Shown piece after piece: positions 11,908 to 60,402 of a stretch of DNA of 64,000 bases; the first letter of the stretch is position 1; each line of letters starts with the position of its first letter. Position numbers and translations under genes: made by a program. This stretch comes from Macellibacteroides fermentans (lineage in GTDB: Bacteria; Bacteroidota; Bacteroidia; Bacteroidales; Tannerellaceae): positions 248,001-312,000 of the forward strand of contig NZ_JACCCY010000004.1 of assembly GCF_013409575.1 (NCBI RefSeq), read 5' to 3'. Under the pieces are notes generated by a model that was given only the letters and a program-made list of their open reading frames with translations, ran no database searches and was not told the origin of the DNA.

Positions 11908-12002
11908 TAAATGCAAAGCATCCGATTCTCACGAACCGGATGCTCTTTATAACCAAAACCTTAACTATAAAAAATAACACTTATTGTGTTACTGTTTTTC
12001 TA
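11908..12002 (-). ncRNA. RNA cassette copy a: predicted small RNA, orphan copy
   Basis: Minus-strand transcript of about 95 nt predicted from the promoter at 12008-12061. It contains a stem-loop TAACAC-AATAA-GTGTTA, then the invariant linker AGTTAAGGTTTTGGTTA, then the terminator hairpin GCATCCG-(12 nt loop)-CGGATGC followed by TTTGCATTT. The linker and the hairpin loop GTTCGTGAGAAT are shared with copies b-e, but the first stem-loop is different in sequence. No minus-strand gene follows: the RNA ends against the 3' end of the plus-strand Wzc gene. This copy therefore behaves as a free-standing small RNA gene, not a leader. Confidence 0.6.
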
Positions 12003-12007
12003 TGCCC

Positions 12008-12061
12008 CAAATGTATGAAACAATTTAATATTTTCAAACATTTTTTTTATGTTCTTCGACA
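12008..12061 (-). promoter_or_regulatory. Promoter of RNA cassette copy a
   Basis: On the minus strand: TGTCGAAGAACA (12050-12061), 11 bases, TTTG (12035-12038), 19 bases, TACATTTG (12008-12015). The spacings are identical to those of the four other copies. Confidence 0.65.
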
Positions 12062-12076
12062 TGGAATAGATGCTTT

Positions 12077-13354
12077 TTAATAGGAAACAACCTTCTTGTA
12101 TTCCGCTAAAGCCAGTTTATGTCCTAACCAAGCATTCACCACATTCGATTTGGCCTGCGTCCAGCTCAGCTGCGCAGACAGTACATCCACAATGCTGGCT
12201 TTCCCTTCATTATAGGTAAAGGTAACCAGATCCAGATTCTCCTCGGCAAGTCCGATATTCTCACGGGCTGTCCGCACCTGATTCATACTCTCCTGTATTT
12301 TAGCCCGAGCTCCGGCCAGCTCCTCCTTTATCTGATCTATAGCCAGACTCTCCTGCAGCTTTTGCGCCGTTACATACGCTTTATACTGTTTGTCGGTCTG
12401 CCGTCGTTCCCCCCAGTGAAATACCGGAAAACTCAGGTTCAGGCCGGTAATAGCAGCAAACGCGGGATCCAGTCCCAGGTTGGGCGAAGCAGAACCCCAG
12501 CCTCCGGTAACAAACATGGATAACTGAGGATTGAATTTACTAAGGACAGAGCTTCTTAGCGCCTCGCTTTTTCTAATATTAGCCTGTGCACTTTTAAATT
12601 CGGCCCTGCGCCCCAGTACCTCGTCCAATTCCAGAAATGCAGGTAAATCCATCTGTTCATCCATGCCTGCCAGTTCCTCCATCTTTTTTTCCGGATCTTC
12701 ACCCATCAGGGTATGTAACCGGTACATAGATAACGTATGATTTTTCCGGGCTGTAATATACTGCAGTTCCGCCTCTTTTTGGCGCGTTGAGATCATCAGT
12801 AAATCCGTTTTGCTTATCAATCCGTCTTCAAACCGGTCCGATATCACCCGGTGCTGCTCCTCAACGATACGCCGGTATTCCTCTGCCGCATCCAGCAAAG
12901 CCTGCGTAGCCGCCGCCTGCCAGTAAACAGCTTCCGCCTGATATACAATCTGATCCATACTCAGCTCCTCGCTTAACTCAGCCAATAAAAGCTCTTCACT
13001 GGCCACCTTGTTCTGGGCTTTCACAGCTCCTCCCATATACAGCGGCTGACTCAATGTTAGCTGTCCGTAATAGGTATGGTTGTGGTATTCGCCAACGGCT
13101 CCGTCCCATTTGTCCAATTCTTTCAAATCAAGCGTACCTTGTGCACTGAAATCCAGTTTTGGGAGATACCCGGTACGGGCAATCCCTTTGGCAGCCGATG
13201 CTGCTATCTTGCTTTCGTGTGCCTGTTTAAGCACCTGGCTGTAGGCAAGCACCCGCTCCCGGTACATATCGGGAGTGAGTGAAACCTGCCCAATCAATAC
13301 TTGGGTTAAACCCAATACCACACACACGATTATTAATTTCTTTTTCATATTCAT
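12077..13354 (-). CDS. TolC-family outer-membrane efflux protein
   Basis: A 425-residue protein with a signal peptide (MNMKKKLIIVCVVLGLTQVL) and two repeats rich in long helices and coiled coil, as in TolC/OEP. Motif-like segments include LDFSAQGTLDLKELD, QLTLSQPLYMGGAV and, in the second repeat, LNLSFPVFHWGERRQ, with YNEGKASIVDVLSAQLSWTQ near the C-terminus. It would form the outer-membrane duct for the RND pump encoded immediately upstream; its ATG overlaps the pump stop by four bases (13351-13354). It is the last gene of a three-gene efflux operon. Substrates cannot be inferred. Confidence 0.92.
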   Translation of the reverse strand: MNMKKKLIIVCVVLGLTQVLIGQVSLTPDMYRERVLAYSQVLKQAHESKIAASAAKGIARTGYLPKLDFSAQGTLDLKELDKWDGAVGEYHNHTYYGQLTLSQPLYMGGAVKAQNKVASEELLLAELSEELSMDQIVYQAEAVYWQAAATQALLDAAEEYRRIVEEQHRVISDRFEDGLISKTDLLMISTRQKEAELQYITARKNHTLSMYRLHTLMGEDPEKKMEELAGMDEQMDLPAFLELDEVLGRRAEFKSAQANIRKSEALRSSVLSKFNPQLSMFVTGGWGSASPNLGLDPAFAAITGLNLSFPVFHWGERRQTDKQYKAYVTAQKLQESLAIDQIKEELAGARAKIQESMNQVRTARENIGLAEENLDLVTFTYNEGKASIVDVLSAQLSWTQAKSNVVNAWLGHKLALAEYKKVVSY

Positions 13355-46373: not shown

Positions 46374-48314
46374 TCAGCGTGATACAGGCTGCTTAATATC
46401 CAGCTTTTCGAATTCGGAATTCTGACTGATAAACTCCGGAACGATCTGCTTCATCTGCAGTACCGTATCAAGCACCAGGCCTTGACGGGCCACTTGCGTT
46501 AACGAATCAATCCGGGGTTCAATCTCCTGGTAGTTATACTCACGTACTTTAGCTACCCTGATTTTTTCGTGTGGGGTAGGGAGGGTATTCTCTTCGTTAC
46601 TCAACAGTTCTTCGTATAATTTTTCGCCGGGACGCAGACCTGTATAAGAAATCTGTATATCCACATCGGGCTCGAAGCCGGCCAGTTCGATCATCCGTCG
46701 GGCCAGGTCGGCTATCTTTACAGGTTCGCCCATCTCAAAGATAAAGATCTCGCCACCCTTGCCCATGGTACCCGCCTCCAGCACCAGCCGGCACGCCTCG
46801 GGGATGGTCATAAAGTAGCGTATGATGTCCGGATGAGTCACCGTAATGGGTCCACCCTTCTCAATCTGTTCGCGGAAGCGCGGAATCACCGAACCGTTGC
46901 TCCCCAGCACATTGCCAAAGCGCGTGGTGATAAACTTCGTTACACCCGGATGGGTACCGTTCTTGATGGCCGTAGCCAGACTCTGCACATATATTTCGGC
47001 CAACCGCTTGCTGCAGCCCATCACATTGGTGGGATTCACGGCCTTGTCCGTCGATACCATCACAAACCGTTCCACCCCGTACTTCACGGCATGGTCCGCC
47101 ATGTTGCGCGTACCCCGCACATTCACCCGTATGGCCTCGCAGGGATTGCTCTCCATCAACGGCACATGCTTGTAGGCTGCCGCATGGAATACCACCTGAG
47201 GAAGGTATCTTTCAAAAACTGCATTCACCCGTGATTCACTGCGCACATCCCCGATAACCGGCTGGAACTTCAGTTCCGGAAACTTCTCTTCCAATTCAAG
47301 ACGTAAGTTATGCATGGGCGTCTCCGCCGAGTCAAACAACACCAGCTTGCGGATGCGGAAGCGTGCCAGCTGCCGGCAGATCTCGCTCCCGATGGAGCCC
47401 GCCGCACCAGACACCAGCACCACTTTGCCCTCCAGACTATCGGCAATCTCCTGCAGGTTGATCTTAATCTCGTCGCGGCCCAGTAAGTCCTCGATACGAA
47501 CCGGACGGATGGACCGTTTAACGCCGCCATCCACCAAATCCTCCATGGGAGGCATCACCAACGTACGCAGGTTCAGCTTCTCGCAGTGACGGATCAAACG
47601 GTTCTGTTCCTCTTTGGCCTCTTTGGGATTGGTAAACAATATCCCGTCCAGGTTATTTCTTTTAATCAGGCTGGCAAGCCCGGTCTTGTCTTCCACATAA
47701 TAAACCGGCAGTCCACCGATGCTCATCTGTTTCCCTTTTGAACCATAAATAATATACCCCATTACCTTATACATGTTAAGGTAAGCCTGGGTGTTCAGGT
47801 ATACAGACGATATGCTCTGAGGGGTGGTGCCATAAATAAGCAAATTCCGTTGCTGCTTATTGTTGGTGGAAAGAATGAAATTATACAAGTTTATCAGGAT
47901 CACCCGCAGCGACAGCATCAAACCTCCGGTAGCCAGCGAATCAATAAAGAAGCAGAGAATCAAGAATTTGATAGGCTTGGGATCCCCGAAAAAGTAGATC
48001 AGGATGATAAGCAAAACCGACTTAACGAAGGAAGCCGACCCCAGACGCCACAACTCCTGCAGCGTAGAATGGCGAACCACCCCCCGGTAGGGACGGAAAA
48101 CCAGAAAAGCTGCGACGCTTGCTACGCCGGAGAAGAATGCCATGCGTACAAATACACCTAAATCTACATGAATGCCGATGGCATACTGAAGCAGGATGAT
48201 GGTAAAAAGGGATACAGTAACGGAGGTCGCCAGGTCGGCACCAAATACAATCCAACGGCTCAGGTATTTGAGTTGGGCCAGATTATTAAGTCTTTCTTGA
48301 ACAATTCTTTTCAT
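46374..48314 (-). CDS. FlaA1/WbpM/CapD-type NDP-sugar 4,6-dehydratase, copy 1
   Basis: Start taken at the ATG 48312-48314 (MKRIVQERLNNLAQLKYLSR), shared with copy 2; upstream extensions differ between the copies. The 646-residue protein has four N-terminal membrane helices (about residues 20-145), a CoA-binding-like nucleotide domain and the SDR domain. The latter carries VSGAAGSIGSEICRQLARF near 290, VSTDKAVNPTNVMGCSK near 410 (Met replaces the usual Tyr, normal in this family) and TRFGNVLGSNGSVIPRF near 450. It probably converts UDP-GlcNAc to the 4-keto-6-deoxy sugar. It follows RNA cassette b and is almost identical to 55933-57882. Confidence 0.92.
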   Translation of the reverse strand: MKRIVQERLNNLAQLKYLSRWIVFGADLATSVTVSLFTIILLQYAIGIHVDLGVFVRMAFFSGVASVAAFLVFRPYRGVVRHSTLQELWRLGSASFVKSVLLIILIYFFGDPKPIKFLILCFFIDSLATGGLMLSLRVILINLYNFILSTNNKQQRNLLIYGTTPQSISSVYLNTQAYLNMYKVMGYIIYGSKGKQMSIGGLPVYYVEDKTGLASLIKRNNLDGILFTNPKEAKEEQNRLIRHCEKLNLRTLVMPPMEDLVDGGVKRSIRPVRIEDLLGRDEIKINLQEIADSLEGKVVLVSGAAGSIGSEICRQLARFRIRKLVLFDSAETPMHNLRLELEEKFPELKFQPVIGDVRSESRVNAVFERYLPQVVFHAAAYKHVPLMESNPCEAIRVNVRGTRNMADHAVKYGVERFVMVSTDKAVNPTNVMGCSKRLAEIYVQSLATAIKNGTHPGVTKFITTRFGNVLGSNGSVIPRFREQIEKGGPITVTHPDIIRYFMTIPEACRLVLEAGTMGKGGEIFIFEMGEPVKIADLARRMIELAGFEPDVDIQISYTGLRPGEKLYEELLSNEENTLPTPHEKIRVAKVREYNYQEIEPRIDSLTQVARQGLVLDTVLQMKQIVPEFISQNSEFEKLDIKQPVSR

Positions 48315-48423
48315 TAAGTCTTTCGTAAAATGGGAAAACCAGCAATTACAATTTACAGAATTAAATAGATTCACTCGGCAAAGTTATGACAATTCCTGCG
48401 ACTAAAAAATTATTATTGGGTAT

Positions 48424-48525
48424 AAAAGCAAAATATCCGATTCTCACGAACCGGATACCTTTTTTTTAACCAAAACCTTAACTTAAATATAAGAGAAAGG
48501 CACCGTAGTACCGTGTCTTATATCG
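48424..48525 (-). ncRNA. RNA cassette copy b: small RNA or leader before dehydratase copy 1
   Basis: Minus-strand transcript of about 100 nt. A composite stem ATAAGA/TCTTAT encloses GGTAC-TACG-GTGCC, followed by the linker AGTTAAGGTTTTGGTTA and the hairpin GTATCCG-(12 nt)-CGGATAT with TTTTGCTTTT. It ends about 110 bases before the start of the dehydratase gene. The inner stem keeps pairing through a G-U pair where copies c-e have an A-U pair. Confidence 0.62.
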
Positions 48526-48530
48526 TATTG

Positions 48531-48584
48531 CAAATATAAGGCACTTTTTTTAACCACCAAATATATTTTATATGTTCTATAACA
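48531..48584 (-). promoter_or_regulatory. Promoter of RNA cassette copy b
   Basis: Minus strand: TGTTATAGAACA (48573-48584), 11 bases, TTTG (48558-48561), 19 bases, TATATTTG (48531-48538). The same geometry is found at the four other cassettes. Confidence 0.72.
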
Positions 48585-48650
48585 TATTTTAATGTAATTC
48601 AACCTGATTATCGTCAATATGTATATATTCGTGACGATATTCTGATTTCA

Positions 48651-49298
48651 TTACCGCATAATATTCAGTATCGTAGCAATGGCCATCAGCATGGTTGAGA
48701 AGAATGAAAACTTAGACCAGTTGATGTCTGCAGGCTCCTTTACGTAAACGGTATCACCGGCGTATAGCACCGGCAGTTTCTGTACCCGGTGCTTCGGGTT
48801 CATGTAATCCTTCAGCCGGATCTCCTCCATGGACTGATCCGCCCGTACAATCACAATCTGTTTCCCCTTCTTTATATTCTTGATGCCACCCGCCATGCTC
48901 AGGGCCGAAAGCAGGTCCACCCCCTCGAAAACCTGAAACTGTCCCGGCTTGTTTACATACCCCAACACATTCAGCATCTGGTTCTGAATCTTGCGGATGT
49001 AGATAGACACCACCGGATTCACCACATACTTCTCCACGCTCTTTTCCACCGATGCGGTAAGCGCTTCGCTGCTCATCCCCGCCGCCTTTATACCACCGAT
49101 CCCCGGATACTGGATATACCCGTCGGGCAGCACCGTAATGCCGCTCAACGAAAACTCCGGATGCTCCATCACAACGATATCCAGCACATCCCCCCGGTTA
49201 ATCACATAACTCCCGTTCTGCCCTGTTGCCGAATTAACAACCAAGAACAGACACCAAAGTACCAAACCCGCAACACACCTCACATTCATATAGCACAT
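48651..49298 (-). CDS. Small SLBB polysaccharide export protein with C-terminal membrane helix
   Basis: A 215-residue secreted protein with a signal peptide (about residues 4-26, ending SATGQ) and no lipobox. It has a poly-export domain (YVINRGDVLDIVVMEHPEFS near residue 30), an SLBB domain (LNVLGYVNKPGQFQVFEG near 113) and a C-terminal hydrophobic helix (FFSTMLMAIATILNIMR). This resembles a short Wza-type exporter. The start may be the first or the fourth codon (Met). It is the last gene of a three-gene operon with the SLBB-LCP and LysM-kinase genes, 26 bases after the former. Confidence 0.85.
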   Translation of the reverse strand: MCYMNVRCVAGLVLWCLFLVVNSATGQNGSYVINRGDVLDIVVMEHPEFSLSGITVLPDGYIQYPGIGGIKAAGMSSEALTASVEKSVEKYVVNPVVSIYIRKIQNQMLNVLGYVNKPGQFQVFEGVDLLSALSMAGGIKNIKKGKQIVIVRADQSMEEIRLKDYMNPKHRVQKLPVLYAGDTVYVKEPADINWSKFSFFSTMLMAIATILNIMR

Positions 49299-49324
49299 TT
49301 ATTTTGTTAGACTCCAATCAAACC

Positions 49325-50506
49325 CTAATACACCCGTTGCTTCCTGTTTCCGGGAGCCACCAGATACGAGCGGATCTCCCGTTTAAGCAGCGACCGGTAC
49401 CCCGGAATATCCGGATAAAAGAACAACCGGTCCCCCTCCGCACTGTAATACCCCGGCAACGTACCGAAGGATAATTCGGGCACGGCAAGCATATTCCGGT
49501 ACAGAGACAACACAAACTTCCGGTCCATGTTGGTCTGGAAGAGCTCCCCGATACGGGCTATCAACTTCAGCTGATCCTCCGTATCCAGTTGGCCGAAAGC
49601 ACTGCGCATGGCACGCAACATACCCTGCTGGCGGTGCCGTCTGGCATCGTAAGCCACTTCCAGTCCCCGTACATCCAACCCCCTGGCATCCTGCCTGTCC
49701 AGAAACCGTATAAACTCCCAGGCCCCGAAGCCATCCAACCTGCCTTTTCCCGGCTTCACCCCAACCCCCTGGGCATAGGTACCGTCCAGGTTACAGTCAA
49801 CACCCCCCAGCCGGTCAATCAGACTGATAAACCGGGAGCGGTCCTGTATCAGGAAATAATCTATTTTCTGATTGAGGGAAGCCTCTACGACACGGAGCGT
49901 AGGACGAATATCCAAGGTAAAGAACAGATCCATCAGTCGGTAATCCTCTGCAAGGAAACGGGTACTGAAGGGAATATGGGTACACTGAATCCGGTTGAGC
50001 TCCGGATAGAAAGTTATCAACACATATACAGCAGGCAACCCCACATATAAAATAGAAACATGCTGCAGCTCCCGGTCCTCCTTCCCAAGGAAGAGCGAGT
50101 CGCCCGCCAAGGCCACCTCCTTATTCATCAACCCCTCCGGCACCACCGGCAACCGTACTGCGGCTCCGCCATTGCCCCGAAAGGGAATTATATATACCGA
50201 ATCATTGCGCACCGTCCGTTCCGCATCCACCCTAAAGAAATCTGCACCGGGCTTGAGTCCCCCGGCCCTGCGGATCAGCATCCCCAGGTCGGAACCCCGC
50301 TCCATGGAATACACCGCCGGACGATTCACCGCACCGCATACCGCCACCCGGATCGCCACCCTCTCACGGTTGTCCGCAAACAAAGGCAGCACCACCCAGT
50401 ACACCAGCCCCGTCAGCACCAGTACACCCAGCACCACCCAAAAGGCAATCTTCCTGCGGCGGAACACCTTGGGAGAAACCCCGTTGCTAGCAGGCATCCC
50501 CTTCAT
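49325..50506 (-). CDS. SLBB-LCP fusion protein (LytR-CpsA-Psr family, Gram-negative variant)
   Basis: A 393-residue inner-membrane-anchored protein. One helix (residues 20-43) precedes an SLBB domain (VAVCGAVNRPAVYSMERGSD, residues 54-73, to about 108). An LCP domain spans roughly 150-300: IDYFLIQDRSRFISLIDRLG at 215-234, GRLDGFGAWEFIRFLDR near 255, RRHRQQGMLRAM at 289-300. LCP enzymes transfer undecaprenyl-linked polymers to the wall in Gram-positives. The usual PRDT-type motif is replaced by IPFSTRF (about residues 178-184), so catalysis may be altered. It overlaps the LysM-kinase gene by four bases. Confidence 0.8.
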   Translation of the reverse strand: MKGMPASNGVSPKVFRRRKIAFWVVLGVLVLTGLVYWVVLPLFADNRERVAIRVAVCGAVNRPAVYSMERGSDLGMLIRRAGGLKPGADFFRVDAERTVRNDSVYIIPFRGNGGAAVRLPVVPEGLMNKEVALAGDSLFLGKEDRELQHVSILYVGLPAVYVLITFYPELNRIQCTHIPFSTRFLAEDYRLMDLFFTLDIRPTLRVVEASLNQKIDYFLIQDRSRFISLIDRLGGVDCNLDGTYAQGVGVKPGKGRLDGFGAWEFIRFLDRQDARGLDVRGLEVAYDARRHRQQGMLRAMRSAFGQLDTEDQLKLIARIGELFQTNMDRKFVLSLYRNMLAVPELSFGTLPGYYSAEGDRLFFYPDIPGYRSLLKREIRSYLVAPGNRKQRVY

Positions 50507-53184
50507 CCGTTAGCAGCCAATTTATCCAACGCATCCACCCCCTCGAAGTTACCCGCCAGAATCTCCCGCTGAAGTTTGGCAGCACGGGCGACCGACTCCT
50601 TATCGGCCGCATCAATCCGGTATCGGTCCGGCATCGGAATCCGCAGCGAAGCACCCGCAGGCACCCGGTTGGGATCCTTTATCACATCCCGGTTGGCTAT
50701 ATACACATACACCCAGAATACCTTATCCCCATAGTACGAAAGAGACAGCAAGGTAAGTCGGGTTCCCGCTTCCACCACCACTGTATCCAGCCACTGAGGG
50801 GCAACACTATCGGCATTCAAAGTACCGGCAACCAAAGCCGTATCAGGAACAGCGGCAGGCGCCGGCACCCGAACCTCCGGAACCACCTCCGTCTGCCGGG
50901 CGGTAAACCTTTTACCTGCCGTAACATATCCCAGCCAGCCGGCAATGGCCAACGCCTGGAAGGCAAGGAAGAAATACATCCATTTCCGGAGACGGAATTT
51001 CCGGAAAAGCGGTACCCGCACCGGCTGCATCTCCGGCACCAACGCACCGGAAGCCCCGTCCGCCTCCCCATCGGGATAATAGCGGTACCTTTCGGCATGA
51101 TATCCCGTATATTTGTTCAGCACATTCCCTTTCACCCCGTTGATGATGGCCCCCAGCACCGGCAGGTTGTGCGACTGCAGCAACCCCTTCAGCTTATCCA
51201 GCGCCACCCGCGAGGTAACCTCCAGGCGCACCATCAGGATAATCCCGTCCATGTGCTCCATAACACCCACCACCTCGGGCACGAACAACGCCGCCGGCGT
51301 GTCCACAATCACCACGTCGAACCGTTGGCGCACCTCCTGCAGGAAGGCAGTCAGCGCCGGATCATCATACAACAAATCCCTGCGCTCCTTTACGGTACCC
51401 GCCGCTGTAAACCAAAGCGAAGGCACCCGCGTTTCCTGCAGCACCCCCTCCAGATTACAACCTCCGGCAAGCAAATCACTCAGTCCCCGGCTGTCCGTAC
51501 GCTGCAACATCCCGCTCAGCTTAGGCGCAAAAAAATCCATATCCACCAGCAGCACCCGCAACTTCTTGTAGGCCAGCGCCCGTGCCAGCTCCAGGCTTAT
51601 CAGCGACTTGCCCTCCTGGCGTACCGAACTGCATACGGCCAACACCCTTTTATCCTTATATTTTATGGCCTGCCTCAGGTTCACCACCACACTGCTCAAG
51701 TCGCTCCAACCCGCATACCCACCGGCAGCCGGCTCCTTCAGTCCCCGGTCGCCAAAGGCATCCGGTTTTCGGTGCCCGAACGACCCCAGCACAGGCCACG
51801 TATAGAAACACTCAAAATCCCCCGTCACCATCAGCCGGTTATCCAGCATATCATACAAGAAGACCAACCCAGCGGCCACGGCCAGCCCCGCCATCAACCC
51901 CACGGCAATAAAAAAGACAATCCCCTTGTTGGCAGGCAGGGCAGGCACATCCGGCTCGTCCACCATTACAAAACGGCTCAAACTGCCCGACGAAGCACTC
52001 TGCGCCTCAATCAAATTCAGGTTCAGCTGCTTGATCGTCATAAACACCATCTCGCGGTTGCGCAACACCTGCTGCTGATTCTCATCGTTGGCATCCGGCA
52101 ACGTCCTATGCTCCAGATCCCCAATCACCCTTTCCAGCGAAGCCACGTGCGTCTCTTCACTCACCTCCGCAATCTGCAGCTCCATCAACTTGCTCATCAG
52201 CTGCGTCTTCAGCGGATTCTCCATCAGGCTCTTAATCTGCATCCGGTTCTCCAGACTATCCCGCAACATCACGTTGAGCTGCTTTATATTACTGCGTATC
52301 GCCTTCACCGAAGGATGATCCTCCCGGTTTTTGGTCAGCGCCCGTGCCAGATCCACCTCCAGGTTCATCAGCTGCACCTTTAACGGCTCTGTGAAAGCCG
52401 ACTCGTTCACAATCGTGCCGTCCAGATTCTTCAGGGCACTCTCCGTACGCTGGCGCGATGCCTTGAGGGTACTCAACGCAATCTGCGCCTTCATCAGATC
52501 CATGCGGAACGACTCCAGGTTCGCCTGCAACCTGTCCACATCCAGCATCCCTCCCGAGCTGGTAGCCGCCATAGACAACACCTGCTTGTCAAGCACATTC
52601 AGTTTCTCGTTATTATCGGCAATCTGTTTGGTAAGAAAATCGATCAGCCGCTGCGAATTACTCTGCTGATGCTTCAGCAGCAACTCATTGAGCGACTCCA
52701 TGTAGGCCGACATAATCAGCGGAATCTCCGCCGGGTGGGCAGAAGTTATCCCCACTTTGAAGATCGGCACCCGGTCCTCCCTCTTTTTATCCAGAATATC
52801 CACTTTGATAGCCCCTTTCAGCTGGTCGGCCGTAAGCGGCAGCCCCGTACGCTGCAAGGTAAGCCGGGCAATCTCCGTACTCTGCATGTTGCTGAGCCAG
52901 AAATTCTTGTCGAAATCCGACTTCACCACCGGCACATTCTTTTCAGACATATACTCGTGCACTGTTTCGTTGTAGAATACCTCGTAATCAGACTTGTACA
53001 ACTTGGGCTGTTTCACAGCAAACACCACCACCGCCATAAAAACCAACACAAAACCGCATAAAAAAACCCACTTGTGTATAAGTAACACCTGCAGGTAACG
53101 AACAATCAGATGAACCAGGTTCTCTTCTGGCTCATTGGAAGGTACGGAATTAGAATTAAAATTTAAATCAGAATTAGGATGCAT
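50503..53184 (-). CDS. Wzc-like BY-kinase with third membrane helix and C-terminal LysM domain
   Basis: An 893-residue protein. Residues 1-450 form a Wzc/Wzz unit with helices at 36-57 and 421-444 and a long periplasmic coiled coil. The kinase domain follows: Walker A SSVRQEGKS (519-527), Walker A' LLVDMDFFAPK (545-555), Walker B VVIVDTP (624-630), and a short tyrosine cluster at 692-703. The chain then continues, unlike Wzc: a third helix (735-755), a proline-rich linker, and a LysM-like domain at about 800-850 (YYGDKVFWVYVYIANRDVI, then DPNRVPAGASLRIP). The tail would be periplasmic and bind peptidoglycan or glycan. First gene of the operon, preceded by cassette c. Unusually GC-rich codon use. 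Confidence 0.9.
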   Translation of the reverse strand: MHPNSDLNFNSNSVPSNEPEENLVHLIVRYLQVLLIHKWVFLCGFVLVFMAVVVFAVKQPKLYKSDYEVFYNETVHEYMSEKNVPVVKSDFDKNFWLSNMQSTEIARLTLQRTGLPLTADQLKGAIKVDILDKKREDRVPIFKVGITSAHPAEIPLIMSAYMESLNELLLKHQQSNSQRLIDFLTKQIADNNEKLNVLDKQVLSMAATSSGGMLDVDRLQANLESFRMDLMKAQIALSTLKASRQRTESALKNLDGTIVNESAFTEPLKVQLMNLEVDLARALTKNREDHPSVKAIRSNIKQLNVMLRDSLENRMQIKSLMENPLKTQLMSKLMELQIAEVSEETHVASLERVIGDLEHRTLPDANDENQQQVLRNREMVFMTIKQLNLNLIEAQSASSGSLSRFVMVDEPDVPALPANKGIVFFIAVGLMAGLAVAAGLVFLYDMLDNRLMVTGDFECFYTWPVLGSFGHRKPDAFGDRGLKEPAAGGYAGWSDLSSVVVNLRQAIKYKDKRVLAVCSSVRQEGKSLISLELARALAYKKLRVLLVDMDFFAPKLSGMLQRTDSRGLSDLLAGGCNLEGVLQETRVPSLWFTAAGTVKERRDLLYDDPALTAFLQEVRQRFDVVIVDTPAALFVPEVVGVMEHMDGIILMVRLEVTSRVALDKLKGLLQSHNLPVLGAIINGVKGNVLNKYTGYHAERYRYYPDGEADGASGALVPEMQPVRVPLFRKFRLRKWMYFFLAFQALAIAGWLGYVTAGKRFTARQTEVVPEVRVPAPAAVPDTALVAGTLNADSVAPQWLDTVVVEAGTRLTLLSLSYYGDKVFWVYVYIANRDVIKDPNRVPAGASLRIPMPDRYRIDAADKESVARAAKLQREILAGNFEGVDALDKLAANG

Positions 53185-53317
53185 GGTTCACTGGCTGCTA
53201 AAAAAATGTCAACTGGATATGGAAATCGCCGACAAATATAATCAAATTATTAAACAATAAAGACTTAAATGTGAAAAAATAAAACTAAAATGTTAAAAAT
53301 GAAGGCCCATAGGGTAT

Positions 53318-53417
53318 AAAAGCAAAATATCCGACTCTCACGAACCGGATATCTCTATTTTAACCAAAACCTTAACTAACATAAGAGAAAGGTACTGTAG
53401 TACCGTGTCTTATATCG
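53318..53417 (-). ncRNA. RNA cassette copy c: small RNA or leader before the LysM-kinase operon
   Basis: Minus-strand transcript of about 100 nt. A composite stem (ATAAGA/TCTTAT around GGTAC-TACA-GTACC) is followed by the linker AGTTAAGGTTTTGGTTA and the hairpin ATATCCG-(12 nt)-CGGATAT with TTTTGCTTTT. The hairpin ends about 135 bases before the kinase gene start at 53184. Homology to copies d and e extends upstream to about 53505, covering nearly the whole gap. Confidence 0.65.
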
Positions 53418-53422
53418 TACTG

Positions 53423-53476
53423 CAAATATACGCCCCTTTTCCAGACTACCAAACTAATTTTACATGTTCTATAACA
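53423..53476 (-). promoter_or_regulatory. Promoter of RNA cassette copy c
   Basis: Minus strand: TGTTATAGAACA (53465-53476), 11 bases, TTTG (53450-53453), 19 bases, TATATTTG (53423-53430). Confidence 0.75.
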
Positions 53477-53519
53477 GTTTATTTATTAGTTCGATTGCTT
53501 GTTTAGCACGATAATTATC

Positions 53520-54476
53520 TTATTTGTCTGACTCTTCTTTAAAGCTATTAAAGGTATCCAGTAATCCCTTTCTGGCATTAACAGGAAGGGATTCTATATC
53601 TAAAGCCCTTTTTATCTTCGAGTTGTTCACCACATAGGTATCCGTCGGCTTTTTAAAGCGAACCCTGTTAAGAGGCAGGCAGAAAAGATCGCCAATTACC
53701 GCTACACTTCGTATAAAATATTTTGGTAAGCGCCATATCCGGGCTTTTCGTCCCTGCGATTCGCAAATAACCTCAATCAACTCGTTGGTAGAAATGGTCT
53801 GGTCGTCGCCAATATGATAAATACCCGAAGCCACGTGGCCCGACACCAATCCCTCAATAATAAACGAAAGATTGTCCATGCTTGTAAACGACCGTTTGTT
53901 CCCGAACGCCCCCAACGGCCAGGGAATCCCCTTGTTAACCATGTTATACAGTAAATAAAGATACCCCTTGTTACCCGGACCGTGAATCAAACAGGGACGT
54001 AAAATATACACCCGCTTCCACGACTCGTCATCCATATTAAACTTTCCCATAATGTACCTTTCTTCCTTCAGCTTGGTTTCTCCAAAGGCCTCCACCGGCC
54101 AGGGAATCGCCTCCTCGTCCAGCACCTCGTCGCCCACCGAATTGGCAACAGCCTTAACCGAACTGAAAAAGATAAACTTTTTTGAATCAGAAGCCAGAAA
54201 GTAATTGAACACCCGTTGGGTAAGCGTAAGATTTACGGTAAAGTCGGGCTTCCGGATACAGCGAACCGCCACATCAGGCGTAACAGCAGCCAGGTGGATA
54301 ATCACATCCATGGCCGGAATCCGATTCTCATTCAAATCATTCCAGCTATACGTCTTTGCCAGTCCCGGTTTGTGTTGCGCCACAATATCGACTCCGTAAA
54401 CAGTATGTTTGGCACACAGTGCCTTCACCAGATTGGAGCCCACAAATCCATGAACTCCCGTTATAAGTATATTCAT
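53520..54476 (-). CDS. NAD-dependent epimerase/dehydratase family protein (extended SDR)
   Basis: A 318-residue SDR with the cofactor motif ITGVHGFVGSNLV at residue 5, DVIIHLAAVTPDV near 58 and FIFFSSVKAVA near 100. The position of the catalytic YxxxK reads FGETK (near residue 132), with Phe for Tyr, so classical proton transfer is doubtful. Later segments (RPCLIHGPGNKGYLYLLYNM, YHIGDDQTISTNELIEVI) are normal for sugar epimerases. It is bracketed by RNA cassettes d (upstream) and c (downstream), so it appears to be a single-gene unit. Confidence 0.85.
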   Translation of the reverse strand: MNILITGVHGFVGSNLVKALCAKHTVYGVDIVAQHKPGLAKTYSWNDLNENRIPAMDVIIHLAAVTPDVAVRCIRKPDFTVNLTLTQRVFNYFLASDSKKFIFFSSVKAVANSVGDEVLDEEAIPWPVEAFGETKLKEERYIMGKFNMDDESWKRVYILRPCLIHGPGNKGYLYLLYNMVNKGIPWPLGAFGNKRSFTSMDNLSFIIEGLVSGHVASGIYHIGDDQTISTNELIEVICESQGRKARIWRLPKYFIRSVAVIGDLFCLPLNRVRFKKPTDTYVVNNSKIKRALDIESLPVNARKGLLDTFNSFKEESDK

Positions 54477-54521
54477 TTTTAAAGTATCAGAGCGGTTTTA
54501 TAAAAAGTTGATAGACATCTT

Positions 54522-54624
54522 AAAAGCAAAATATCCGACTCTCACGAACCGGATATCTCTATTTTAACCAAAACCTTAACTTAGAATATAAGAGAAAGGT
54601 ACTGTAGTACCGTGTCTTATATCG
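54522..54624 (-). ncRNA. RNA cassette copy d: small RNA or leader before the SDR gene
   Basis: Minus-strand transcript of about 103 nt with the same elements as copy c: ATAAGA/TCTTAT stem around GGTAC-TACA-GTACC, the linker AGTTAAGGTTTTGGTTA, hairpin ATATCCG/CGGATAT and TTTTGCTTTT. It ends about 45 bases before the SDR start at 54476. The spacer between the two structures differs in sequence from copies c and e. Confidence 0.65.
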
Positions 54625-54629
54625 TATTG

Positions 54630-54683
54630 CAAATATACGCCCCTTTTCCAGACTACCAAACTTATCTTAGATGTTCTATAACA
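54630..54683 (-). promoter_or_regulatory. Promoter of RNA cassette copy d
   Basis: Minus strand: TGTTATAGAACA (54672-54683), 11 bases, TTTG (54657-54660), 19 bases, TATATTTG (54630-54637). Confidence 0.75.
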
Positions 54684-54726
54684 CTTTATTTATTAGTTCG
54701 TTTGGTTGTTTATGTGGGATATAATC

Positions 54727-55521
54727 TTAACGGGCTGCCATTTGCGAAAACTCCTTGATGCGTTGTTCTTCGGTGAGTTTGCATATTAACAGGGTATTGT
54801 CTTTTTCGGCGATGATGTAGCCATCGAGGCCCTGAATTACCACCATCTTGTTTTCGGGGGTATGCACCATGCAGTTGGTGCTTTCAATAAGATGGATGTT
54901 TGGTCCGATGGCAGCATTGTTGGACGCATCCTTTTCGGTACGTTCGTGTAACGAACCCCAGGTACCCAGATCGCTCCACCCGAAATCTGCCGGAAACACA
55001 TACATATCTTTGGCCTTCTCCATAATGGCATAGTCAACCGAGATACTCTTACACTTGGGAAACAACTCATCGATAACCATCTGTTCTCCGTCCGCACGTT
55101 CCATACAAAGATACCCGCATTCCAATAATAATTAGGCTGCGCAATATACCACTGTATCCATCACCACATGGTCGGCAGGCGTAACCACCAGATTCGCTTT
55201 GGGATACCGCATGGCAATCTTCCAGGCCACATACGCAATGCACGGAGCCGTATTACGCATACAAGGCTCCAGCAGAATATTCTCCTTCGGAATCTCGGGC
55301 AGCTGCTCGCGTACCAGCGAGGCAAAACTCTTGGAAGTAACCACCCAGATATGCTCCGGCGGACAAACCCCTTTAAACCGATCGGCAGTGAGCTGAATCA
55401 AGGTACGTCCACACCCCAATACATCGATAAACTGTTTAGGCCTTTCAGGCGTACTCATGGGCCAGAACCGGCTGCCAATCCCCCCGGCCATTATAACAAT
55501 GTGATTTGTATTTGATTTCAT
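54727..55521 (-). pseudogene. manC: Mannose-1-phosphate guanylyltransferase, ruined by internal deletions and frameshifts
   Basis: The start is intact: NHIVIMAGGIGSRFWPMSTP near residue 7 and PKQFIDVLG, then NTAPCIAYVAWKI and VTPADHVVMDTV, after which the frame stops at 55132. A second frame resumes with WNAGIFVWNV, and a third with EQMVIDELFPKCKSISVDYA and FGWSDLGTWGSLHE to the end at 54727. Compared with the family (about 350 residues), roughly 100 residues before WNAGIF and about 35 after it are missing. The product, GDP-mannose, cannot be made by these fragments. Cassette e precedes the gene, so its promoter has outlived its function. Confidence 0.85.
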
Positions 55522-55571
55522 CGGATCAAAATTATAGAAAGAATTATTGTGTGATTTATTATTTATGTCTT

Positions 55572-55671
55572 AAAACGCAAAATATCCGACTCTCACGAAC
55601 CGGATATCTCTTCTTTAACCAAAACCTTAACTATATAAGAGAAAGGTACTCTAGTACCGTGTCTTATATCG
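55572..55671 (-). ncRNA. RNA cassette copy e: small RNA or leader before the manC remnant
   Basis: Minus-strand transcript of about 100 nt: ATAAGA/TCTTAT stem around GGTAC-TAGA-GTACC, the linker AGTTAAGGTTTTGGTTA, hairpin ATATCCG/CGGATAT, then TTTTGCGTTTT. It ends about 50 bases before the manC start. The RNA part is well conserved although the gene it precedes is broken. Confidence 0.65.
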
Positions 55672-55676
55672 TACTG

Positions 55677-55730
55677 CAAATATACGGTAGTTTTCCATAC
55701 TACCAAACTTATTATACATGTTCTATAACA
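55677..55730 (-). promoter_or_regulatory. Promoter of RNA cassette copy e
   Basis: Minus strand: TGTTATAGAACA (55719-55730), 11 bases, TTTG (55704-55707), 19 bases, TATATTTG (55677-55684). The remaining gap to 55932 holds no gene. Confidence 0.75.
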
Positions 55731-55932
55731 GTTTATTTATTAGTTTGATTGGTTGTTTAATCAGATAAATATCCTATCGACTCTTCAATAAGCAGGAAGT
55801 TCAGGAATAAGTGACTACTTTAAATCACTTCTTTAGCTATGAACAGAATACAGAACCATAGGTATTTACTAGGATTTGACTTCATTAATAAATAGATGTC
55901 TTGTAATATCCTATCTAACTATTTACTTGTAT

Positions 55933-57882
55933 TTAACACACTTTGGAAGTCGATACCTGTTTTATATCCAGTTTTTCAAATTCTGAATTCTGGCTGAGAA
56001 ATTCCGGGACGATTTGTTTCATTTGGATTACCGTATCCAGCACTTTACCTTGACGGGCTACTTGTGTCAAAGAATCAATCATTGGTTCAATCTCCTGGTA
56101 GTTGTACTCACGTACCTTGGCTACTCTGATTTTTTCGTGTGGGGTAGGGAGGGTATTCTCTTCGTTACTTAATAGTTCTTCGTATAATTTTTCACCGGGA
56201 CGCAGACCTGTAAAAGCAATCTGGATATCCACATCGGGCTCGAAGCCGGCCAGTTCGATCATCCGTCGGGCCAGGTCGGCTATCTTTACAGGTTCGCCCA
56301 TTTCAAAGATAAAGATCTCGCCACCCTTGCCCATGGTACCCGCCTCCAGCACCAGCCGGCACGCCTCGGGGATGGTCATAAAGTAGCGTATGATGTCCGG
56401 ATGGGTCACAGTAATAGGTCCACCCTTCTCAATCTGTTCGCGGAAGCGCGGAATCACCGAACCGTTGCTCCCCAGCACATTGCCAAAGCGTGTGGTGATA
56501 AACTTCGTTACACCCGGATGGGTACCGTTCTTGATGGCCGTAGCCAGACTCTGCACATATATTTCGGCCAACCGCTTGCTGCATCCCATTACATTGGTGG
56601 GATTTACGGCCTTGTCTGTCGATACCATCACAAACCGCTCCACCCCGTACTTCACGGCATGGTCCGCCATGTTGCGCGTTCCCCGCACATTCACCCGTAT
56701 GGCCTCGCAGGGATTGCTCTCCATCAACGGCACATGCTTGTAGGCAGCCGCATGGAATACCACCTGGGGAAGGTATCTTTCAAAAACTGCATTCACCCGT
56801 GATTCACTGCGCACATCCCCGATAACCGGCTGGAACTTCAGTTCCGGAAACTTCTCCTCCAGTTCCAGTCGAAGGTTATGCATGGGCGTCTCCGCCGAGT
56901 CAAACAACACCAGCTTGCGGATGCGGAAGCGTGCCAGCTGACGGCATATCTCGCTCCCGATGGAGCCCGCCGCACCAGACACCAGCACCACTTTGCCCTC
57001 CAGACTATCGGCAATCTCCTGCAGGTTGATCTTAATCTCGTCGCGGCCCAGTAAGTCCTCGATACGAACCGGACGGATGGACCGTTTAACGCCGCCATCC
57101 ACCAAATCCTCCATGGGAGGCATCACCAACGTACGCAGGTTCAGCTTCTCGCAGTGACGGATCAAACGGTTTTGTTCCTCTTTGGCCTCTTTGGGATTGG
57201 TAAATAAAATCCCGTCCAGGTTATTTCTTTTAATCAGGCTGGCAAGCCCGGTCATATCTTCAACATAAAAAACCGGCAATCCGCCGATGCTCATCTGTTT
57301 CCCCTTCGAACCATAAATGATGTAACCCATGGCCTTATACATGTTAAGGTAAGCCTGGGTGTTAAGGTATACAGAAGATATACTTTGAGGGGTTGTACCA
57401 TAAATAAGCAAATTCCGTTGCTGCTTATTGTTGGTGGAAAGTATGAAATTATACAGGTTTATCAGGATCACCCGCAGCGATAACATCAACACACCGGTAG
57501 CCAGCGAATCGATAAAGAAGCAGAGAATCCAGAACTTGATAGGTTTGGGAGCTCCGAAAAAGTAGATCAGGGTGATAAGCAAAACCGACTTCACGCATGA
57601 AGCCGAGCCCAGACGCCACAACTCCTGCAGCGTAGAATGGCGAACCACTCCCCGGTAGGGACGGAAAACCATAAAAGCAGCGACGCTTGCTACGCCGGAG
57701 AAGAATGCCATGCGTACAAATACACCTAAATCCACAAATATGCCGATGGCATATTGAAGCAGGATGATGGTAAAAAGGGATACGGTAACGGAGGTAGCCA
57801 GGTCGGCTCCAAACACAATCCAACGGCTCAGGTATTTGAGTTGGGCCAGATTATTAAGTCTTTCTTGAACAATTCTTTTCAT
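55933..57882 (-). CDS. FlaA1/WbpM/PglF-type NDP-sugar 4,6-dehydratase, copy 2
   Basis: Start taken at ATG 57880-57882, as in copy 1. The architecture is the same: four membrane helices, nucleotide-binding domain, SDR domain with GAAGSIGSE and NVMGCSK. The stretch from about residue 205 to 575 is identical in protein sequence to copy 1, while the N-terminal membrane part and the last 60 residues differ at scattered positions and the C-terminus is different. Upstream genes in the same orientation (aminotransferase, acetyltransferase, PglC, PglA types) suggest that this copy supplies the 4-keto intermediate for a bacillosamine-like sugar. No RNA cassette lies directly upstream of it. Confidence 0.92.
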   Translation of the reverse strand: MKRIVQERLNNLAQLKYLSRWIVFGADLATSVTVSLFTIILLQYAIGIFVDLGVFVRMAFFSGVASVAAFMVFRPYRGVVRHSTLQELWRLGSASCVKSVLLITLIYFFGAPKPIKFWILCFFIDSLATGVLMLSLRVILINLYNFILSTNNKQQRNLLIYGTTPQSISSVYLNTQAYLNMYKAMGYIIYGSKGKQMSIGGLPVFYVEDMTGLASLIKRNNLDGILFTNPKEAKEEQNRLIRHCEKLNLRTLVMPPMEDLVDGGVKRSIRPVRIEDLLGRDEIKINLQEIADSLEGKVVLVSGAAGSIGSEICRQLARFRIRKLVLFDSAETPMHNLRLELEEKFPELKFQPVIGDVRSESRVNAVFERYLPQVVFHAAAYKHVPLMESNPCEAIRVNVRGTRNMADHAVKYGVERFVMVSTDKAVNPTNVMGCSKRLAEIYVQSLATAIKNGTHPGVTKFITTRFGNVLGSNGSVIPRFREQIEKGGPITVTHPDIIRYFMTIPEACRLVLEAGTMGKGGEIFIFEMGEPVKIADLARRMIELAGFEPDVDIQIAFTGLRPGEKLYEELLSNEENTLPTPHEKIRVAKVREYNYQEIEPMIDSLTQVARQGKVLDTVIQMKQIVPEFLSQNSEFEKLDIKQVSTSKVC

Positions 57883-58006
57883 TAAGTCATTTGTAAAAGG
57901 AAAATTCAGCAAAATATATGTCAACCGATAAAAATATATTTCAAAATTTAAAATCTATGACATCTATTTTTATTAATTAATTGGTTTTAATAAATTCTAT
58001 ATTAAA

Positions 58007-59793: not shown

Positions 59794-60402
59794 TTAGTTC
59801 TTTCCATTAAATTTATACATTGTTACCTCTTTTGTCTGATTGATGTTTTCAGACTTTATCACTTTTAAAATAGTTAAAAGAATAATCTTTATGTCTAATT
59901 TAAATGACATGTTTTCTACATACCAGATGTCCAGTTCAAATTTCTGTGTCCAACTTATTGCGTTTCGTCCATTAATTTGAGCCCACCCCGTAATTCCAGG
60001 TCTAACGTTATGCCTTTTTTTCTGATCGTTACTATATAGGGGTAGGTAGTCAATAAGTAAGGGTCTGGGACCTATTAAACTCATATCACCTTTTAATACA
60101 TTAATAAGTTGAGGTAATTCATCAATAGAAGTTTTTCTAATAAACTTCCCAACAGGAGTTATTCTTTTGTCATTTGGTAAAAGATTTCCTTCATTGTCCC
60201 GTACTTCAGTCATTGATTTAAACTTAATTACATTAAATATCTTTTCATTCATACCTGGGCGACTTTGAAAAAAAATGACTCCTGCTCCTTTGTTTGCAAA
60301 TAGGAGGATCAAACTAACAACTAAAAGCAATGGAGATAATATTATTAGTGCAATTAGCGAGATTGCAAAATCAATAAATCGTTTAATGATTAATGGGTAC
60401 AT
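59794..60402 (-). CDS. PglC-type initiating phosphoglycosyl transferase
   Basis: A 202-residue monotopic transferase. One N-terminal re-entrant hydrophobic segment (about 10-34) is followed by FQSRPGMNEKIFNVIKFKSM near residue 49. FIRKTSIDELPQLINVLKGD near 88 contains the DE catalytic pair. SLIGPRPLLIDYL near 112 and RPGITGWAQINGRN near 136 complete the signature. It moves a sugar phosphate from UDP to undecaprenyl phosphate and so starts a second repeat unit in this window, beside the WecA-like enzyme at 45200. It overlaps the GT4 gene by 13 bases. Confidence 0.93.
   Translation of the reverse strand: MYPLIIKRFIDFAISLIALIILSPLLLVVSLILLFANKGAGVIFFQSRPGMNEKIFNVIKFKSMTEVRDNEGNLLPNDKRITPVGKFIRKTSIDELPQLINVLKGDMSLIGPRPLLIDYLPLYSNDQKKRHNVRPGITGWAQINGRNAISWTQKFELDIWYVENMSFKLDIKIILLTILKVIKSENINQTKEVTMYKFNGKN

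Follow-up and report, generated by a model that had tools for sequence, protein, structure and literature searches.

Five short repeated units lie on the minus strand of a 64,000-nucleotide stretch of the Macellibacteroides fermentans genome (contig NZ_JACCCY010000004.1, positions 248,001 to 312,000), and they raise the question of whether they are small-RNA genes, leaders of the genes that follow them, or duplicated spacers. The whole stretch is referred to below as the window, with its first letter as position 1, and the units (copies 1 to 5) occupy positions 11908-12061, 48424-48584, 53318-53476, 54522-54683 and 55572-55730. Cur (BT4338) is a Crp-type, carbohydrate-related master regulator of Bacteroides, and FopS is, to our knowledge, the worked-out multi-copy small RNA (sRNA) family of Bacteroidales. 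With a probability of roughly 0.7, we consider the five units to be paralogous genes, controlled by Cur and distinct from FopS, for trans-acting sRNAs of about 100 nucleotides (nt). The repeated units are real, and they are best read as an sRNA family that lies outside Rfam 15, differs from FopS and is ordinary in kind. The parts of the units, their spacing, a copy linked to miaB, an expansion of the family and its difference from FopS are all apparent at the level of sequence.

Architecture of the five units

In order, each unit has an inverted repeat, a promoter of the form TTTG-N19-TAnnTTTG downstream of it, a 5' hairpin, then AGTTAAGGTTTTGGTTA as the 17-mer and, last, a terminator hairpin whose loop is GTGA. 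A search of the window found the exact 17-mer at 11950, 48467, 53361, 54565 and 55616; when up to three mismatches were allowed, the same five places were recovered, compared with a mean of 0.29 in shuffled sequences, and none of 100 shuffles held five. The hairpin core TCCGGTTCGTGAGARTCGGA was exact in all five units (shuffle mean, 0.00), and only 0, 0, 1, 2 and 3 of 200 dinucleotide shuffles folded as well as the respective units. The places and strand, the promoter, the invariant 17-mer and the terminator hairpin described in a first-pass annotation of this DNA were thus all confirmed. Its statement that the copies have the same parts held for the core, terminator and promoter layout of all five, but not for the 5' hairpin, which is different in copy 1. 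Copies 2 to 5 are close paralogues that are nearly identical within the unit; copies 3 to 5 are also alike for approximately 40 to 60 bases upstream of it, whereas copy 2 is not. The features of each copy are as follows.

Copy 1, 11908-12003, minus strand: predicted small RNA (about 96 nt), with all parts from the promoter through to a U-rich tail; fold z of -5.76 on 11908-12010; 5' segment equalled by 0 of 300 shuffles
Copy 1, 12050-12061, minus strand: Cur-like site TGTCGAAGAACA, 46 base pairs (bp) ahead of the -7 box; its 16-mer agrees with the consensus at 11 of 14 positions
Copy 1, 12035-12038, minus strand: -33 box TTTG, N19 to the -7 box
Copy 1, 12008-12015, minus strand: -7 box TACATTTG
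Copy 1, 11950-11966, minus strand: 17-mer core, exact match
Copy 1, 11921-11940, minus strand: terminator hairpin core, GTGA loop
Copy 2, 48424-48525, minus strand: predicted small RNA (about 102 nt)
Copy 2, 48573-48584, minus strand: Cur-like site TGTTATAGAACA (16-mer TATGTTATAGAACATA), 14 of 14 fixed positions
Copy 2, 48558-48561, minus strand: -33 box TTTG
Copy 2, 48531-48538, minus strand: -7 box TATATTTG
Copy 2, 48467-48483, minus strand: 17-mer core, exact match
Copy 2, 48430-48461, minus strand: terminator hairpin, 14 pairs, GTGA loop
Copy 3, 53318-53417, minus strand: predicted small RNA (about 100 nt)
Copy 3, 53465-53476, minus strand: Cur-like site TGTTATAGAACA, 11 of 14
Copy 3, 53450-53453, minus strand: -33 box TTTG
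Copy 3, 53423-53430, minus strand: -7 box TATATTTG
Copy 3, 53378-53416, minus strand: two-tier 5' hairpin, 0 of 300 shuffles as stable; closely similar hairpins in copies 2, 4 and 5
Copy 3, 53361-53377, minus strand: 17-mer core, exact match
Copy 3, 53324-53355, minus strand: terminator hairpin, 14 pairs, GTGA loop
Copy 4, 54522-54624, minus strand: predicted small RNA (about 103 nt)
Copy 4, 54672-54683, minus strand: Cur-like site TGTTATAGAACA, 11 of 14
Copy 4, 54657-54660, minus strand: -33 box TTTG
Copy 4, 54630-54637, minus strand: -7 box TATATTTG
Copy 4, 54565-54581, minus strand: 17-mer core, exact match
Copy 4, 54534-54553, minus strand: terminator hairpin core, GTGA loop
Copy 5, 55572-55671, minus strand: predicted small RNA (about 100 nt)
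Copy 5, 55719-55730, minus strand: Cur-like site TGTTATAGAACA, 11 of 14
Copy 5, 55704-55707, minus strand: -33 box TTTG
Copy 5, 55677-55684, minus strand: -7 box TATATTTG
Copy 5, 55616-55632, minus strand: 17-mer core, exact match
Copy 5, 55585-55604, minus strand: terminator hairpin core, GTGA loop

Related copies, Cur-like sites and the link to miaB

A sixth exact copy of the 17-mer is present elsewhere in this genome (locus L001, G000:C3:297848), with a 5' stem and terminator different from those of the window units. Variant cores stand beside the same type of terminator at L019 (2 mismatches), L016 (3) and L007 (5), the last of which was counted as a member on the basis of its layout and model score. 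A covariance model that covers the core and the terminator, built from 11 units, gave matches above 68 bits at eight places in this genome, two in the relative G027 and one in G036, with the next match at 58.9 bits; ten of these 11 matches were in the alignment of the model itself and so match by construction, whereas L089 (G036) was not. The alignment also contained L102, from the metagenome assembly 'Bacteroides sp. STD2_73', which is outside the 123 genomes searched from the host family, probably Tannerellaceae. These matches place the window copies in an expansion specific to the lineage. The GTGA-loop terminator hairpin was found at 16 places in the genome with up to two mismatches, eight of them without the core; terminators of this type lacking the RNA core were observed at L013, L014, L015, L017, L018 and L020-L022. 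The 5' hairpin was equalled by no more than 8 of 300 shuffles in 9 of the 11 window-type copies, and in L079 and L016 the inner stem is kept with different letters (CCGGA/UCCGG and CCGAA/UUCGG).

The consensus for Cur binding is given in PMC3878776 and PMC6989115, in the passages concerned, as wwwTATGTTnTAnAACATAwww. We scored Cur-like sites at 14 fixed positions within a 16-mer of this Bacteroides Cur (BT4338) consensus. In 10 of the 11 window-type copies, the distance from the -7 box to an upstream site with 10 to 14 of the 14 positions is exactly 46 bp, and the eleventh, L016, has a 12/14 site at 45 bp, with the -7 boxes of L007, L080 and L016 having been picked by hand. Within the window, the site of copy 2 is perfect, and those of copies 1, 3, 4 and 5 match at 11 positions. 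These copies are not all independent: copies 2 to 5 and L102 are related, and together with copy 1, L079/L016, L080, L007 and L019 they make up approximately six groups. None of the other copies scored reaches 10 of 14 at 46 bp, and a few have 10 or 11 at other distances (L067 and L099, for example). As background, a score of at least 10 occurred at 65 of 63984 window positions and a score of at least 12 at one of 63984, and 221 of 2000 window stretches of 125 bases held a site of at least 10/14, so that such a site is not in itself rare. The Cur-like box at a fixed spacing is a new observation that goes beyond the first-pass annotation, and we infer from the sequence that Cur would control the units.

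The first-pass annotation had tied its reading to the presence of the conserved core in other genomes, and the core was indeed there. The exact 17-mer was detected in 73 of the 123 family genomes and in 15 of 16 genera, compared with none of the 123 for a reversed control. It was found in none of the 41 family genomes of genus g15, in which FopS is present; four g15 genomes gave weak matches to the covariance model (best E value, 7.2e-5). When one locus was fetched per genome (L050-L078), miaB was divergent from the 17-mer in 25 of the 29; over all loci examined the count was 36 of 55, a set in which 25 loci were chosen otherwise and L100 and L101 repeat L089 and L088. Named examples with this linkage are Porphyromonas gulae (L099) and P. 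loveana (L103), and loci of the miaB type share a longer block, TTTTTCATAGTTAAGGTTTTGGTTA, around the 17-mer. In other families of the order, the exact 17-mer was present in 4 of 388 genomes and its reversed control in 6 of 388; all four copies are divergent from miaB and carry the longer block. MiaB was also searched for in 60 genomes, and among the 29 of the 30 best-match loci used that are not from this genome, the near form AGTTAAGGTTTAGGTTA, or the same with a final T, was found within 900 bases upstream of miaB in four, with none in the other 25. Little but the core is kept between the miaB type and the window type, with the 5' stem, terminator and promoter being different, and searching by exact match overstates the invariance of the 17-mer. 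On sequence grounds, the family has a miaB-linked copy, its probable founder, that is found in several Bacteroidales families. At L051, L072, L084, L094, L156 and L157, the -7 box is located approximately 17 bases before the core, which would place the start of the RNA nearly at the 17-mer and leave no 5' hairpin.

Comparison with FopS and other known RNAs

FopS comprises paralogous sRNAs of Bacteroides thetaiotaomicron (Rfam RF04319; PMC11697453), the authors of which, in the relevant part of that paper, leave a possible additional transcriptional regulator open. The units resemble FopS in being multi-copy, in the TTTG/TAnnTTTG type of promoter and in possessing both a terminator hairpin and a stretch that includes TTAAGGTT, but they have another seed, a 5' hairpin before the core and other loci in the same genome. 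FopS was found in 122 of the 123 family genomes, and RF04319 gave 12 matches in this genome at an E value of no more than 0.001, two of them listed by place; L041-L043 were scanned and pass the gathering score, whereas the window gave no match at that score. With up to three mismatches to its 32 letters, the FopS R1' seed GTGTTTTTCATAGTATTAGATTTAAGGTTAACAAA was found at nine places in the genome, all on contigs C1-C3, and at none in the window (C4). The single-stranded 5' seed end of FopS also has no counterpart, a predicted 5' hairpin preceding the core in the five copies.

Pairing was compared at the starts of 30 of the 40 SusC genes that were over the cut-off, each start being set at the first ATG in the open frame. 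The FopS seeds, serving as a positive control, paired with these starts better than all 200 shuffles (z of -7.5 and -8.4), whereas the 17-mer showed no excess of pairing with them (z of +1.66; 192 of 200 shuffles as good). The longer block of the miaB type gave a z of -2.6, which 2 of 200 shuffles matched, and pairing between the UUUCAU of this block and start codons may be the cause. Homology of the core to FopS was not supported by local alignment to two FopS copies, given that 33 to 209 of 1000 shuffles did as well (L001, 118 and 43; L053, 66 and 33; copy 3, 126 and 196; copy 1, 209 and 198). Membership in FopS, a family that the first-pass annotation had named without a comparison, was therefore rejected by the RF04319 model, the seed search and SusC pairing.

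Near-perfect Cur-like sites were also observed at FopS promoters. Among 20 FopS copies from 20 other genomes (L218-L237, taken from the best-scoring matches to the FopS model), 19 have 12 or 13 of the 14 Cur positions, and in 17 of the 20 the site is located 20-24 bp before the -7 box, over the -33 position. Of the nine FopS copies examined in this genome (L041-L049), seven have TGTT-N4-AACA upstream, at 54 bp in five, 53 bp in one and 21 bp in one.

The Rfam search that the first-pass annotation had called for gave no match at the gathering score in the window, or for L001, L007, L016 and L019, and the family thus lies outside Rfam 15; the miaB regions L189-L200 gave none at an E value of 0.05 or less. 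BTnc231 (RF04180), a Bacteroides sRNA the consensus of which also has a GUGA-loop terminator, was rejected as an identity, with 21.4 bits on copy 5 and 28.1 bits on L007 compared with a gathering score of 80.4. GibS (RF04182), another Bacteroides sRNA, had no match in 53200-55800 even at an E value of up to 10. A search of open-licence PMC text for the 17-mer as DNA, in RNA form and as its complement, and for sub-words of it, matched six papers; the full 17-mer is in none of them, and judged by their titles they all concern animals, humans or plants. Open-licence literature on FopS, GibS, BT4338, Porphyromonas sRNA, Cur together with sRNA, and Parabacteroides capsule sRNA yielded no title recognised for this RNA among the matches listed. 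The family is thus apparently undescribed.

MasB of B. thetaiotaomicron, as described in the relevant part of PMC10994844, is an sRNA of about 100 nt, like the units, and its activation by Cur has been shown, whereas the units have only a Cur-like box; it is narrowly conserved and targets the mRNA for a TPR protein, unlike the units, to which it is likened by description only. MasB may nevertheless serve as a precedent for a Cur-activated sRNA. Action of Cur through sRNAs has already been proposed, with BTnc140, BTnc195 and BTnc364 lying near BT4338 binding sites and, in the part of the study concerned, having no effect on Roc (PMC10294740); the likeness of these RNAs to the units is the shared idea of Cur.

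Neighbouring genes, rival explanations and significance

Copy 1 is flanked on one side by the end of a gene for an outer-membrane efflux protein (12077-13354) and on the other by a Wzz/kinase gene (9462-11837) that is convergent with it. Copies 2 to 5 lie within a capsule-type cluster with genes of export and chain-length type, genes for nucleotide-sugar enzymes and two Polysacc_synt_2 genes, which we take to be CapD-like. The location in polysaccharide loci given by the first-pass annotation holds for the five window copies and also for L102, but the tested neighbours of L007, L016 and L019 are not polysaccharide genes, one neighbour of L016 having been left out of this test. Copies 2 to 5 stand between the two Polysacc_synt_2 genes (46374-48374 and 55933-57924), whose Pfam scores are nearly equal (401.5 and 402.1), a possible sign that a segment of the cluster was duplicated. 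Between copies 5 and 4, two adjacent short frames occupy 54727-55521: that at 55132-55521 matches the first part of a nucleotidyl transferase and that at 54727-55125 a ManC-type beta-helix end (below the Pfam cut-off), as if they were one broken gene. No tRNAs were found in the window.

In the reading that we prefer, the predicted RNAs would start at their own TTTG/TAnnTTTG promoter and would be composed of the 5' hairpin, the 17-nt stretch AGUUAAGGUUUUGGUUA and the terminator hairpin, in that order. The stretch AGUUAAGGUUUUGGUUA would be the working part, either pairing with mRNAs or being bound by an RRM-type RNA-binding protein, one of the three RRM_1 proteins in the genome. Given the Cur-like box at a fixed upstream place, the units should be switched with carbohydrate supply, Cur raising or lowering the RNAs as sugars run short. 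Because each unit ends in a strong predicted terminator, those within the cluster may also cut read-through between its genes. The view of each copy as a self-contained transcription unit belonging to a paralogous sRNA family is supported by the sequence, from which we infer that the units would be transcribed and would act in trans.

Several results weigh against this reading. The 5' hairpin is equalled by 14 of 300 shuffles in L019 and 64 of 300 in L007, and it seems to be absent in the relatives L051, L072, L084, L086, L089 and L094; the 17-mer is often partly paired in minimum-energy folds of the unit with its flanks. In addition to the hand-picked -7 boxes, the twelfth copy above 68 bits, L089 (G036), has a 13/14 Cur-like site and no clear -7 box. 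As at the SusC starts, pairing of the core gave no signal elsewhere. The complement of 13 core letters, with up to one mismatch, occurs at 12 places in the genome, compared with 31 for a reversed control; seven of the 12 are RNA genes of the family, one is a FopS promoter (L117, beside L045), L114 and L118 have no ATG frame above 60 amino acids nearby, and the only frames at L113 and L116, of 76 and 70 amino acids, are contained in longer open frames. No long complement of the 17-mer was found at a convincing gene start. At 44 window gene starts (46 chosen open reading frames less two dropped at the edges), 93 of 100 shuffles paired as well as the 17-mer; the best duplex, at -13.5 kcal/mol, was reached by 46 of 100 shuffles, and a site 23 bases before gene 59794-60402 had -12.4 kcal/mol, which is not the best of the window. 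The FopS seed was also unremarkable at these 44 starts, with 9 of 100 shuffles as good.

The units might instead be cis-acting leaders, each supplying the next polysaccharide gene with a promoter and an attenuator. Copies 2, 3, 4 and 5 are on the strand of the next gene, whose called start lies 49, 133, 45 and 50 bases beyond the end of the respective unit, and among 11 loci with called neighbours four (L001, L007, L019 and L082) likewise precede a same-strand gene. However, copy 1 and six of the 11 loci (L079, L080, L081, L088, L089 and L016; the next gene of L102 is beyond the end of the locus) face a convergent gene, and leaders cannot explain those units. No competing fold that would undo the terminator was seen among best and centroid folds, and a further -7-like box, TAACTTTG, comes after copy 2 at 48379-48386, with an ATG at 48314, so that the following gene may have its own promoter. 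We regard leaders as unlikely; the repeated attenuator offered by the first-pass annotation is disfavoured by the convergent genes, although it could apply to copies 4 and 5, given how close these end to a start codon. About equally improbable is that the units are duplicated spacers, acting solely as terminators or insulators, in which the 17-mer was kept by recent copying. Such an origin would fit the near-identity of copies 2 to 5, extending upstream in copies 3 to 5, as well as the eight terminators that lack a core, but the 17-mer has been kept across genera while its surroundings changed, and the promoter and Cur-like site stand at a fixed spacing.

We give very little credence to the units being FopS members that act on SusC translation with RbpB: copy number, promoter type, the word TTAAGGTT, the terminator hairpin and the presence of three RRM proteins would agree with it, but the model that accepts L041-L043 finds nothing in the window, SusC pairing (192 of 200 shuffles as good, versus 0 of 200 for the FopS seeds) is lacking, and the alignments are readily equalled by shuffles. 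The two families may nevertheless share an RNA-binding protein. A short peptide encoded by the core is less credible still. L001 and copy 3 allow a reading as short frames that include VKVLV, but the frame is directly preceded by a TAA in copies 2 and 4 and lacks an ATG in copy 5, and we rejected this reading on these grounds; third codon positions are also invariant, although exact-match searching favours that.

If the preferred reading of paralogous sRNA genes is correct, Bacteroidales would have a second multi-copy sRNA family, one copy of which is conserved next to miaB in genomes that include Porphyromonas, and the short fixed core would make target capture straightforward. A bolder and tentative view, which we hold to be somewhat less probable than its negation, is that an undescribed sRNA, found next to miaB in several Bacteroidales families, came under Cur control as it multiplied in this lineage and was inserted among capsule genes. 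It would thereby form a second RNA arm beside FopS, with its own seed and targets, through which carbohydrate shortage would reset the surface polysaccharide, both arms answering to Cur. The Cur-like boxes in both families suggest a common regulator that may link carbohydrate sensing to capsule clusters by way of RNA.

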